Shown: positions 11,321 through 55,670 of the stretch, piece by piece
Position numbering within the stretch: position 1 is the first letter of the stretch
How the letters are laid out: every line of letters begins with the position of its first letter
Assembly: GCA_003243975.1 (NCBI GenBank)
Contig: QHBJ01000015.1
Coordinates: 92,066-149,392, forward strand
Reading direction: 5' to 3'
DNA length: 57,327 nucleotides
Origin: Candidatus Meridianibacter frigidus
Lineage (GTDB): Bacteria > Vulcanimicrobiota > Vulcanimicrobiia > Vulcanimicrobiales > Vulcanimicrobiaceae
Notes under the pieces: model-generated
Database searches by the model: none
Seen by the model: the letters and a program-made list of their open reading frames with translations, nothing else
Told to the model about the DNA's origin: nothing
Program-made: the position numbers and the translations under genes

Positions 11321-12619
11321 TCAGTACTTGCCGTTACCGCTGTCTTCGTTGTATCCCCGTGAAAGCGACATCGCTTCCTTGGTAACGGTTTGTAGGAACT
11401 CGTCATTGGTGCGCGTTTGCGCCATGCGATCGAGGATAAGCTCCGTGATGTCGCCTGCGTTGAGCACAGCGGTGGCACGGCGCAGCATCCAGATCTTGCG
11501 CATCTCCTCTTCGTTCAGCAGCAGCTCTTCGTGGCGGGTGCCCGAGCGCTTGATGTCAACGGCAGGGAATACGCGCGACTCGGCCAGTTTCCGCGTCAAG
11601 TTGAGTTCCATATTGCCCGTGCCCTTGAACTCCTCAAAGATCACGTCGTCCATCTTCGATCCGGTTTCGATGAGCGCGGTGGCAATAATGGTGAGCGATC
11701 CGCCTTCCTCTATTTTGCGGGCGGCGCCGAAGAAGCGCTTGGGCTTGTGCAAGGAGGCCGTGTCGAGACCGCCCGACAGCGTGCGACCCGAGGTCGGAAT
11801 GACTTGGTTGTAGGCACGCGCCAAGCGCGTAATCGAGTCCAGCAAGATCACGACGTCCTTGCCCAGCTCCACCAAACGCTTTGCGCGTTCCATCGTCAGC
11901 TCGGCTACAGCGGTGTGGTTCTCGGGATGCTCGTCGAAGGTGGAGGCCACGACCTCGCCATCGATGGTGCGCTGCATATCCGTCACTTCTTCCGGACGCT
12001 CGTCGACCAGCAGTGCGATGATGTGCGCGTCGGGGTGATTGATTGAAATCGAGTTCGCGATGTTCTTGAGGAGCGTGGTCTTGCCGGCTTTCGGCGGGGA
12101 AACGATTAGCGCGCGCTGCCCCTTGCCGATCGGACAGAACACGTCGATGACGCGCGTCGAGAGCTGCGTGGAGCGAACTTCGAGTTTGAAACGCTCCTGC
12201 GGATAGATCGGCGTGCCTTTTTCGAAAACGCGGCGTCCGCGAATCGCTTCCGGGTCGAACCCGTTGATGGTTTCAACCTTAATCAGGCCGTAGTATTTTT
12301 CGCCCTCTTTGGGGCGGCGCACTTGGCCGTCCACCAAATCGCCGCGGCGCAGTTCGAAGCGGCGAATCTGCGACTGGCTCACATAGATGTCGTCGGGCCC
12401 AATGAGGTAGCCGTCGCGGCGAAGGAAGCCGTAGCCCTCCGGCAAGACGTCGAGCACGCCGTTGGCCATCTCCAATCCCGAGCGGATAGCCTGAATCTCA
12501 AGAATCTTCGGAATGAGTTCGTCTTTTTTTAGTTTCAGCGGGTTCTCGATGTCGAACTCTTTGGCTAGCGTGTTCAGTTCGGTCTTGGTCTTCTCGTCGA
12601 GTTGCTGCGCGGTGAGCAT
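11321..12619 (-). CDS. rho: Transcription termination factor Rho (conserved part)
   Basis: 432 residues from ATG 12619. There is an N-terminal Rho_N helix region (TELNTLAKEFDIENPLKLKKDELIPKILE), then the RNA-binding cold-shock domain (GVLDVLPEGYGFLR...PDDIYVSQSQIRRF), then the RecA-like ATPase with P-loop SPPKAGKTTLLKN, VDERPEEVTDMQR, LLDSITRLARAYN and the Q/R loops. The hexameric helicase ends factor-dependent transcription. There is no ribosome site before ATG 12619, and a coding-like Arg-rich extension in the same frame reaches upstream (separate entry), so the true start is probably further upstream. Confidence 0.95.
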   Translation of the reverse strand: MLTAQQLDEKTKTELNTLAKEFDIENPLKLKKDELIPKILEIQAIRSGLEMANGVLDVLPEGYGFLRRDGYLIGPDDIYVSQSQIRRFELRRGDLVDGQVRRPKEGEKYYGLIKVETINGFDPEAIRGRRVFEKGTPIYPQERFKLEVRSTQLSTRVIDVFCPIGKGQRALIVSPPKAGKTTLLKNIANSISINHPDAHIIALLVDERPEEVTDMQRTIDGEVVASTFDEHPENHTAVAELTMERAKRLVELGKDVVILLDSITRLARAYNQVIPTSGRTLSGGLDTASLHKPKRFFGAARKIEEGGSLTIIATALIETGSKMDDVIFEEFKGTGNMELNLTRKLAESRVFPAVDIKRSGTRHEELLLNEEEMRKIWMLRRATAVLNAGDITELILDRMAQTRTNDEFLQTVTKEAMSLSRGYNEDSGNGKY

Positions 12620-13165: not shown

Positions 13166-13780
13166 TTATGGGTTTAGGTGCTTGGGACCGGACACAAATG
13201 GGTTGCCGCGTTCGTAGAAGCGCAGATGGCGGTGCGCCGCTTTGGTGATGCCGATCCGTTTGCTCTTTCGAATAAGCGGACTTGCGAATCGCGCGTCCGC
13301 CAAATAGAGGTCCGCCGAGCCGATAAGATCCTGGCCGTCGTCATTACTATCTATGGAAAGTGCCTGACACAAACGTCCGGGTCCCCGGCATAGGTCACGC
13401 ATGCGCTGAGTGCCGCGCCGCTCCATCATCAAGGGAAGCCCCTCGAGCGGCTCGAGCGCACGAACGAGAACGGCTTCGCCTTCGCCTTCGGATTGGGCGG
13501 TGACATTGAAGCAAAACGACGTCCCGTAGATCCGGTAAACGTAGGCGCGAAATGGTTCGAGAAACATAGAACGATTGCGCGAAGTCTGGCCGCGGTACGC
13601 ATGCGAGGCCGGATCGTTGCCGACGTAGGCCTCAACCTCCACGATCTTTCCCGCGCAAAGGCCCGCGCGCGCGTCGCGCACCAGCACTAAGCCGATCAAC
13701 GTCTTGGCCAAGGCGAGGGTATCGTGCGGCAACGCTTCGCGCCGTATCCTTTGAAGGGTCAACTTCTTGTGAAGGGTCAA
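13166..13780 (-). CDS. mpg: DNA-3-methyladenine glycosylase (Mpg/AAG family)
   Basis: About 204 residues. It excises alkylated purines such as 3-methyladenine and hypoxanthine. The family core is clear: DTLALAKTLIGLVLVR, GKIVEVEAYVGNDPASHAYRG with the catalytic Glu in VEVEAY, NRSMFLEPFRAYVYRIYG, the CFNVTAQ strand and DLCRGPGRLCQAL. The start is unclear: TTG 13780 or TTG 13762 fall in an 18-base tandem duplication that repeats KKLTL(H/Q) at the N-terminus, and neither has a good ribosome site. It follows an RNase H-like gene that has a LexA-type operator, suggesting damage-inducible co-expression. Confidence 0.92.
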   Translation of the reverse strand: MTLHKKLTLQRIRREALPHDTLALAKTLIGLVLVRDARAGLCAGKIVEVEAYVGNDPASHAYRGQTSRNRSMFLEPFRAYVYRIYGTSFCFNVTAQSEGEGEAVLVRALEPLEGLPLMMERRGTQRMRDLCRGPGRLCQALSIDSNDDGQDLIGSADLYLADARFASPLIRKSKRIGITKAAHRHLRFYERGNPFVSGPKHLNP

Positions 13781-13787
13781 CTTCTTG
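13752..13787. repeat. 18-base tandem duplication at the mpg start
   Basis: TGAAGGGTCAACTTCTTG occurs at 13752-13769 and again at 13770-13787, head to tail and exact. On the coding strand this duplicates six codons at the very N-terminus of Mpg and creates two possible TTG starts. Confidence 0.9.
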
Positions 13788-13793
13788 GCCGCT

Positions 13794-14222
13794 TTAGGCG
13801 GCTACGTGCAGAGCGACCTCCGCGCGAGCACGGGCGGTGAGGTCTTGGGCCACCGCGCCCCCTGCTTGAACATAATACTCGGCGAAGCGATTCAGTGCGC
13901 AGCCCAAGCGAACGTACTCCAGAGCGAGCGGTAACGGCAGTTCGCTATGTGCCTGCGCGTCCTCAACCAGCCGGCTGTCCGGAACCTCGATCTTGAGCCG
14001 GCGACAGCCCAGATCAGCCAAACGCGTGACCACCGCGGTCGTTGCCGCATAGGAAACCTCGCGCTCAAGAAGCGACGGGTATCGCCGCACACGGAACGGA
14101 ACGCGGAGCAGCTTCTGATTCCCGTCGACGGTAAGCTTTGCGTAGGCCAAACCCTGCCCCGCTTCGTCGGCTGCGAAGCCCACGGCTACGTCGATCAAGG
14201 GGTGTCCGCGTTTGCTGCTCAC
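13794..14222 (-). CDS. Hypothetical protein, possible RNase H-like fold, SOS-type operator upstream
   Basis: About 142 residues from GTG 14222, which has AAGGA seven bases upstream. The ATG at 14240 has no ribosome site and sits close to the operator. I do not recognise a named family. The pattern suggests an RNase H-type fold: a first strand with Asp (PLIDVAVG), two antiparallel strands (LAYAKLTVDG, LLRVPFRV), a helix with Glu (SLLEREVSYAATTAVVTRL), a strand ending in Asp (LKIEVPDSRLVED), then LNRFAEYYV. This is inference from pattern only. It ends 13 bases before the mpg start codon, so the two are probably co-transcribed. Confidence 0.6.
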   Translation of the reverse strand: MSSKRGHPLIDVAVGFAADEAGQGLAYAKLTVDGNQKLLRVPFRVRRYPSLLEREVSYAATTAVVTRLADLGCRRLKIEVPDSRLVEDAQAHSELPLPLALEYVRLGCALNRFAEYYVQAGGAVAQDLTARARAEVALHVAA

Positions 14223-14245
14223 AATAATTTCCTTACCCATTCTAT

Positions 14246-14263
14246 ATCGAACATATGTTCGAT
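14246..14263 (-). promoter_or_regulatory. LexA-type SOS box
   Basis: An 18-base perfect palindrome, ATCGAACAT/ATGTTCGAT. Its core TCGAAC-ATAT-GTTCGA equals the mycobacterial/actinobacterial LexA operator pattern TCGAAC-N4-GTTCGA and closely resembles the Bacillus DinR box. It lies 24-41 bases upstream of the preferred GTG start of the RNase H-like gene, directly after the stop of the GT4 gene. The neighbouring DNA-repair gene mpg supports an SOS role. Confidence 0.75.
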
Positions 14264-14264
14264 G

Positions 14265-15419
14265 TCAAGTTGCGAGGGCCACGCGTCGAGCCAGCAAAGA
14301 GCGGTAAAGATCGAGCGTGTGCTCGGTTTGTAGCTCCGCCCGGAAGCGGCTAGCCGCTCCCAGCGCCATGTCGCGCTCCAATGCCGTTTGGTTCGACCCG
14401 GCTAGCTTCTCGAAGGCTTGTGCCAGCATTATGGCATCGTTGTCGACCAAGGTCCCGCAGCCACCGAGCACGTCGCGCGCCTGCGGAGTGTCTACGGCCA
14501 CGATCCGCGCGCCGGCCGCTAGCGCTTCGGCCAAAACCAGGCCCTGCGTTTCGCTCAGGCTGGGAAATGCAAAGATGTCGGCGCTAGCATACAGGTCGGG
14601 GAGCTGCTCGCGCGGGAGTTCGCCCGCAAAAATCACCCGATCGGCGATCTGCAGTCGCCCCGCTACGAGTTCTAAGTACGCGCGGTCGGGCCCACCGCCC
14701 ACCAGCACGAGCTGCAACGGCTGCTCGGCTCTGGCGACAGCCTCCAACAAAAGCTCCGTATTCTTTTCGCGCGCCAAGCGGGAAACGCAGAGAATCAAGA
14801 CCTGACCTCGCACGCTCCCAAAACGTGCACGCAAGTCTTCGCGTCGCACGCCCGTCCGAAAGAACTCTAAGTCAATGCCCGTTGGTATCACTTCAATAGG
14901 TGCTTGCACTCCAACTTGAAGCAGATGATCGCGCATGGCCATGGTGGGCACGATGACGGCGTCCGCCGCATTGGCATACGTGCGCGTCAGCGAGGATGCC
15001 GCGCGCCGCGTTGCTCCAGCCTCAAACGGAACGTAGTGCACGTATTTCTCCAACTGCGTGTGATATGTGTATACCAGAGGAATGTGAAAGCGACGAGCGT
15101 AGCGCATGCCCATCCAGCCCGTAACGAATGGCGAATGCGCGTGAATGATCGAAAGCCGCTTGATCACGCCGTTCAAGTTACCGCGGCTTACGAATGGTAG
15201 CGTGAGCCGGTACGCCGTCTTGACCGGCAAGGGCAGAGAGGGCATGCGGAAGATCGGCCCATCGGTTTCGGAGTAACCCGGCGCGTGCGGTGCAAAGCCG
15301 AACACCTCATGCCCCGCCTTGCGCAAGCCCTCCGCTAACGTGTCCACCGAGGCAACGATTCCATTGACGATGGGGTGGTAGCATTCGGTGAAGAATCCGA
15401 CGCGCAAGGCAGGCGCCAT
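14265..15419 (-). CDS. Glycosyltransferase family 4, glycolipid type
   Basis: 384 residues with two Rossmann halves. The N-terminal part (VGFFTECYHPIVNGIVASVDTLAEGL, with IIHAHSPFVTGWMGM and PLVYTYHTQLEKYVHYVP) closely resembles diacylglycerol glucosyltransferases and mannosyltransferases of GT4. The C-terminal half has LCVSRLAREKNTELLLEA, LVGGGPDRAYLE and the nucleotide-sugar motif FAFPSLSETQGLVLAEALAAGARIVA (EX7E). It probably glycosylates a membrane lipid; the acceptor is unknown. ATG at 15419. Divergent from the lipoprotein at 15487. Confidence 0.9.
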   Translation of the reverse strand: MAPALRVGFFTECYHPIVNGIVASVDTLAEGLRKAGHEVFGFAPHAPGYSETDGPIFRMPSLPLPVKTAYRLTLPFVSRGNLNGVIKRLSIIHAHSPFVTGWMGMRYARRFHIPLVYTYHTQLEKYVHYVPFEAGATRRAASSLTRTYANAADAVIVPTMAMRDHLLQVGVQAPIEVIPTGIDLEFFRTGVRREDLRARFGSVRGQVLILCVSRLAREKNTELLLEAVARAEQPLQLVLVGGGPDRAYLELVAGRLQIADRVIFAGELPREQLPDLYASADIFAFPSLSETQGLVLAEALAAGARIVAVDTPQARDVLGGCGTLVDNDAIMLAQAFEKLAGSNQTALERDMALGAASRFRAELQTEHTLDLYRSLLARRVALAT

Positions 15420-54901: not shown

Positions 54902-55670
54902 TCAAACTCGGTGAGCGCTCGCGTACCAGCCGTCACGGCGCTCGCCGACCCAGTCGGCGGGCCAGCCGCCTAGCTCAACGGCGGCCGCGTATACGGCATC
55001 CGCAAACCTAAGAATGGTCGCGCGGGGGTGATCGCTTTTGCGCACGGCATCCCATCCCAAGGCAGAGAAATGAGCCGTTCTCGATTTTATCAGCGAATCT
55101 CTATGGCATAGTCCCGTCTTTGACCCACCTCCAAGCCGTCTGGTAGTGGATGCCCTGCTGTTTTGCCCAGGCGGAGAGCCGCATGCAAACGTATGTTCGC
55201 TGATAGAAAATGACACTCCCGCCAAACAGCTCCTAGCCCCCAAATAAGGCGGGCAGCTGCGGGATCGTAGGGCCGCCCCTCGATATCGGTATCGAAATGA
55301 GGTGAGCCGCAATCTCCGGCTCCAGCCTGTTGCTCGGTGCGGGGATTCCGAGTTTTGAAATCGCCTTGACGAAACTGGCATACGCATCTTCAATCGTGCC
55401 CGCCCTTAGCGGCAGCGAAGTTCGGCCGGTCGAGCGTTCACGACGATCCGGTCGTCGAGGATATCGTACTGCACCCGGAACGTAACTTGTCCCGACCACA
55501 AGACCGGCGTAGCAAAGCCGCGTGGCGTTACCGAGAGCGTGATGCCGCCCCAATTCGGTGAAACGGCTGATCAAGCGTATACTTACTGCCAATTGCACGA
55601 GCCGGTGAATGTGCTTCGCCGTCGGGGCAATCTGGTCGTATGGCAGTGCCGGCCACGGATCGGGCGGAGG
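54902..55670 (-). pseudogene. DUF5996-family gene broken by several frameshifts
   Basis: Pieces of one protein appear in different minus-strand frames: WPALPYDQIAPTAKHIHRL (near 55660), then WGGITLSVTPRGFATPVLW and YDILDDRIVVNARPAEL (about 55550-55430), then LPLRAGTIEDAYASFVKAIS (about 55400), then FDTDIEGRPYDPAAARLIWG (about 55280), and finally FSALGWDAVRKSDHPRATIL with FADAVYAAAVELGGWPADWV ending near 54930. The motif order matches DUF5996 (unknown function, about 300 residues). At least three indels separate them, so it is a decayed gene. Confidence 0.65.

Follow-up and report, generated by a model that had tools for sequence, protein, structure and literature searches.

The window, that is the whole 57,327-nucleotide stretch of DNA analysed here, carries a LexA-type SOS promoter in front of a small gene, here called orf. 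The promoter is very likely controlled by LexA, and sequence comparison places orf among the core SOS genes of the window's class. Its product is most likely a lineage-specific SOS effector, predicted to act by binding rather than by cutting. As a whole account, an SOS promoter driving an operon of a non-catalytic RNase HI-fold effector and the DNA glycosylase Mpg is the explanation we consider probable. The host genome is 1.95 Mb long and 96% complete, and the window sits on its contig 19.

On the minus strand, the gene order is glycosyltransferase, box, orf, mpg and rho. The outer neighbours, a family-4 glycosyltransferase gene upstream (14265..15419, minus strand) and the gene for the transcription terminator rho downstream (11321..12619, minus strand), are syntenic in relatives. 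Between them lie orf (13794..14222, minus strand), which has a GTG start and encodes 142 amino acids ending in -HVAA, and mpg (13166..13780, minus strand), which has a TTG start and encodes a 3-methyladenine (methylpurine) DNA glycosylase of 204 amino acids. The initial annotation had placed an 18-base perfect palindrome 24–41 bases upstream of the GTG (14222-14220), and this is borne out to the base: the palindrome ATCGAACATATGTTCGAT occupies 14246..14263. Its two further observations were confirmed as well, namely a ribosome-binding site AAGGA seven bases before the GTG (14230..14234, minus strand) and a 13-base gap between the orf stop at 13794 and the mpg TTG start at 13780.

The SOS promoter begins at the stop codon of the upstream glycosyltransferase gene. 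Not mentioned in the initial annotation is a sigma-70-type promoter whose spacer the palindrome occupies, TTGACA-18-TAGAAT; it agrees at 11 of 12 positions and is the sole promoter match in the region scanned. The -35 hexamer TTGACA (14263..14268, minus strand) retains at least five of its six bases in 99 of 101 homologues; the spacer to the -10 hexamer TAGAAT (14239..14244, minus strand) is 17 or 18 in 95 of 101. An alternative -10, TATAGA (14241-14246, minus strand), overlaps TAGAAT. With the operator between -35 and -10, a bound repressor would sit where it blocks RNA polymerase. An upstream in-frame ATG at 14240 was rejected as the orf start because the -10 overlaps it; GTG is therefore the better start.

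Conservation of this arrangement was followed in 102 distinct orf homologues from the class, 101 of them with upstream sequence. The search for the same box upstream of homologues, a check proposed in the initial annotation, returned exact CGAACN4GTTCG in 100 of the 101 promoters and a single mismatch in the remaining one; no further exact copy occurs elsewhere in these loci, over 255,200 positions. The four middle bases of the box are mostly RTAY in these promoters, and information content around the box is high only at the box itself, the -35 and the -10. The shorter motif GAACN4GTTC, found at 41 places in this genome vs 34 for a reversed control, is too weak to be used alone.

The gene is a single-copy feature of the class: it is present once in 39 of 41 relatives' genomes searched. 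When 149 genomes of the phylum were searched by alignment, 105 had it, all of the window's class, and the other-class genomes listed gave no match. Loss of orf was considered for some genomes and set aside, the misses in G021, G039, G061, G071, G087, G095, G103 and G113 corresponding to an absent region, a contig edge or an N run (G127 is not counted among these explained misses). A Candidatus Eremiobacterota record (L067) contains a copy with 61% identity and the same neighbours. Searches of phages, plasmids and PHROGs found nothing of the family. Values of dN/dS between 0.03 and 0.35 in the closest pairs indicate purifying selection on orf. Within the window, ATCGAACATATGTTCGAT is the only match at up to three mismatches, and about 0.15 such sites are expected in a stretch of this size, which leaves chance some room; against it stand the near-complete exact conservation of the box, its absence from the rest of the same loci and the selection on orf. 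The notion that the palindrome or orf is a chance feature is rejected, its probability being negligible.

The window's genome encodes one LexA (PF01726 protein). It is full-length, with PF01726 and PF00717 (S24 peptidase) both over cut-off, and putatively self-cleaving; the cleavage motif VAAG is visible in its sequence. Comparison with the operator of the resident lexA, a second check proposed earlier, found the same type of site there: three near-consensus sites, CGAACGGACGTTCG, CAAACGCACGTTCG and CGAACATATGTTTG, lie upstream of it, and at least two such sites occur at all 30 lexA genes examined. An identical box, TCGAACATATGTTCGA, precedes imuA-imuB in this genome (RecA-like ImuA, Y-family ImuB). 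Relatives have similar boxes upstream of imuA-imuB and of a gene for a DNA polymerase III alpha with a PHP domain, which we take as dnaE2. The LexA-type SOS control claimed in the initial annotation is very well supported because the operators of the own lexA, the boxed mutasome genes and the class-wide footprint all point to it. The box would, very improbably, belong to another repressor with a similar motif: LexA binding is argued from motif identity, and elsewhere in some relatives there are weak hits to the DNA-binding profile of LexA, but the single PF01726 protein of this genome has three near-consensus sites at its own gene and the translesion genes imuA-imuB are fronted by the identical box.

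The regulon is not the textbook one, because recA lacks a clear box: in six relatives' loci (L314-L319) no recA site is closer than one or two mismatches, and recA may lie outside this SOS regulon. The promoter-proximal site of lexA is imperfect, whereas the orf operator is perfect, a difference that, by analogy with E. coli, suggests tight repression and late induction of orf.

Other LexA-like sites were observed. A weaker box, CGAACAGGTGTTCG, lies close to where the gene for a class II (B12-dependent) ribonucleotide reductase begins, both in this genome (L197, G000:C8:3706-3719) and in L114 (G004; PF08471), and in L107 (G028) CGAACATATGTTCG lies near a protein similar to that enzyme. The B12-dependent ribonucleotide reductase is likely a further SOS target, as a weaker candidate. 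In L287 (G032:C14:50515), the gene for a DinG-like helicase, which has a Helicase_C_2 domain, starts at a box, and in L109 and L311 (G005, G008) boxes have a radical SAM protein on one side and a divergent membrane protein on the other. The window itself has a LexA-like site, CAAACGTATGTTCG, at 55186-55199 with no clear gene start adjoining. In L204 (G000:C22:140569-140582), CGAACAAGTGTTCG lies between transglycosylase-like and MraZ-like genes, the latter heading a possible cell-division cluster. After imuB in L018 (240-797, minus strand) there is a gene with MUG113/T5orf172 (GIY-YIG-like) matches.

The gene downstream of orf is genuinely mpg, as first annotated: its product matches PF02245 (Pur_DNA_glyco) at E 2.5e-61 and 206.6 bits against a cut-off of 27, and NF002003 is above its cut-off. 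It directly follows orf in 79 of 102 loci, and in both the window's family and the sister family the two genes are as a rule adjacent and in the same direction; orf and mpg are probably co-transcribed. Within the window's family, rho comes directly after orf in L040, L062 and L064, and G009 and G023 show no mpg match at all. In the third family, opposite-strand genes follow orf in the loci read, and mpg, where found, lies further on before rho. No box of its own was found for a separate mpg in the loci checked. Possibly damaged mpg copies were seen in L055 and L189 (mid-match gap; in-frame stop). The SOS unit is primarily orf, since orf keeps its box without mpg and mpg without orf keeps none. 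The SOS-inducible pair originally proposed thus stands as a common neighbourhood but not as a fixed unit: mpg has been lost or moved in some relatives, and the box stays with orf.

The orf protein of the window belongs to no Pfam or NCBIfam family, and its RNase H fold is supported by structure prediction and profile comparison. An AF2 model built on an alignment of three sequences reached pLDDT 85.2 and pTM 0.83, and its predicted order of strands and helices is that of RNase H. Foldseek with this model found RNase HI at E 6.5e-7, with TM-scores up to 0.72 (archaeal RNase H1, 4e19); the best 50 PDB matches were RNase H proteins and variants, and many of the best named viral structure matches were also RNase H. 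Among PDB sequences, the family profile matched only an archaeal RNase H1, and weakly (E 0.53). Alignment by hhalign to the class's own RNase HI gave E 4.7e-5, with reversed and column-shuffled controls at 0.12–0.55. The window protein does not reach the cut-off of RVT_3 (PF13456), and one third-family relative does (23.2 vs 21.6 bits). The genome also has a canonical RNase HI at another locus (G000:C33), and its RVT_3 matches are otherwise to this canonical enzyme. The RNase H-like fold suggested at the outset, for which structure prediction had been the proposed check, is upheld by the model, the Foldseek matches, the controlled profile comparison and the one relative over the RVT_3 cut-off. 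Of the three findings named at the outset as refuting the proposal (no palindrome at orthologues, a different motif for the resident LexA, a fold unlike RNase H), none was made when they were checked.

The nuclease with an Asp-Glu-Asp site that had been read into the sequence fared worse. The best matches to that set, D19, E55 and D82, are all acidic together in only 44 of 102 homologues. The first catalytic Asp of RNase HI (Asp10) aligns to positions 14-18 of strand 1, each acidic in at most one of 102; this placement could be off by one or two residues, but in no nearby column are all sequences acidic. Glu48 aligns to position 57, acidic in 1/102. D82, acidic in all 102, is the equivalent of Asp70; the profile aligner puts it one residue off, and the match was made through the shared D-S-x-L-V motif. 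D127, the candidate for the last catalytic Asp, is acidic in 87/102 and is not found in the sister family or the third family. Among the positions of the four catalytic carboxylates of RNase HI (DEDD), only D82 is universal in the orf family. With the Asp10 and Glu48 positions not acidic and no universal acidic column near strand 1, the canonical site is degraded. Besides D82, the strongly conserved residues are F43, R54, Y58, D/E88 (acidic in 99/102), Y103, C108, N111, R131 and E135 (acidic in 87/102); they could make up a binding surface, or else a rearranged site.

The C-terminus offers a possible clue to turnover. An Ala-Ala end is found in 85 of 102 orf proteins; the corresponding figures for the Mpg and glycosyltransferase proteins from the same loci are 0/80 and 9/97. 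It is confined to the window's family, where it is kept even if no mpg follows; proteins of the sister family end in RSA, and those of the third family vary. After LexA cleavage, the N-terminal fragment is removed by ClpXP (PMC10584840). Cleavage of the own LexA at VAA-G would leave the same VAA end as the orf C-terminus. It is plausible that Ala-Ala acts as a ClpXP-like degron in the window's family only, and the orf protein is perhaps short-lived.

In the mechanism that we infer, covering repression and induction, co-transcription, the binding role and ClpXP turnover, LexA would sit in undamaged cells on the palindrome between -35 and -10 and block RNA polymerase. DNA damage would lead to RecA-stimulated self-cleavage of LexA and free the promoter, which would then express a short operon, the 142-amino-acid RNase HI-fold protein followed by the alkyl-purine glycosylase Mpg. 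The orf protein would act by binding, either to nucleic acid (an RNA:DNA hybrid or gapped DNA) or to a protein partner; of the four catalytic carboxylates of RNase HI two have been lost, which is why binding is preferred to cutting of the RNase H type. Once the response is over, the protein would be cleared quickly through an Ala-Ala end resembling ClpXP signals. In the fullest version of this account, the orf protein would be a damage-induced, short-lived core SOS effector of the whole class that has a non-catalytic RNase H fold and binds RNA:DNA hybrids, gapped DNA or a partner in the replisome or divisome, a role not known for this fold, with Mpg recruited in most lineages; we regard its chances as evenly balanced. 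Some points weigh against the preferred explanation: D82, D/E88, D127 and E135 remain and may form a rearranged metal site, three sequences underlie the AF2 model, recA shows no clear box in the six loci read, and Ala-Ala ends do not extend beyond the window's family.

The same four acidic residues favour the reading that orf instead encodes a catalytically active RNase H-superfamily nuclease, induced by SOS and working with Mpg in alkylation repair through a rearranged acidic site. They are strongly conserved, the predicted secondary structure puts several of them at those ends of strands and helices from which the active site of RNase H is built, and mpg follows orf in most relatives. A nuclease is nevertheless unlikely in view of strand-1 positions 14-18 and position 57, where acidic residues are almost never found, of the loss of D127 in two families and of boxed orf genes that persist where mpg is absent or distant. 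The most interesting rival is a checkpoint effector analogous to SulA, YneA or SidA, which would delay division until repair is done and be released by proteolysis; it is a special case of the preferred explanation, with a protein partner. The small size, lineage specificity and single copy of orf, its perfect operator beside the imperfect promoter-proximal lexA site, and the possible degron in the window's family would fit such a role, and the SOS division inhibitors known to us are unrelated between phyla. Pfam and NCBIfam scans gave no homology to any division inhibitor, and we know of no precedent for an RNase H fold as a division inhibitor. We hold the checkpoint role to be rather doubtful, and keep binding by a non-catalytic RNase HI-fold protein as the preferred reading.

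Comparison with known systems sets these features in context. Experimentally known Gram-positive LexA sites have the consensus CGAACRNRYGTTYG/C, and a predicted Firmicutes lexA motif is TACGAACATATGTTCGTA (PMC2248561). The operator consensus of the class is the same as that of the Gram-positive LexA/DinR (Cheo-box) operons, and TACGAACATATGTTCGTA has the same core; the class differs in that the family of the controlled gene has no entry of its own in Pfam or NCBIfam, that its lexA has two or three sites and that recA has no clear site in the six loci. The orf protein resembles RNase HI/RVT_3 (PF13456) in predicted strand and helix order, in the Foldseek and hhalign results and in the one relative over cut-off, but its family has non-acidic residues at the Asp10 and Glu48 positions. 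With the imuA-imuB-dnaE2 mutagenesis cassette orf has the box in common, although it stands at a separate locus and has no sequence relation to it. The downstream gene is an ordinary member of the Mpg/Aag glycosylases, set apart by apparent SOS control through the shared operon. SulA/YneA/SidA-type inhibitors are likewise small proteins under a LexA-type operator, without homology to orf in the Pfam and NCBIfam scans.

No paper naming both Eremiobacterota and LexA was found in the open-access literature. Footprinting by comparison of promoters defines the LexA operator of the class and part of its SOS regulon, comprising lexA, imuA-imuB, dnaE2 and orf. Within that regulon, orf combines an almost invariant operator with no known function. 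A pseudo-RNase H serving as an SOS effector would, if true, be a new use of the fold. In E. coli, control of alkylation repair runs through Ada and not through the general damage response; an SOS-controlled Mpg, if true, would tie alkylation repair to that general response.
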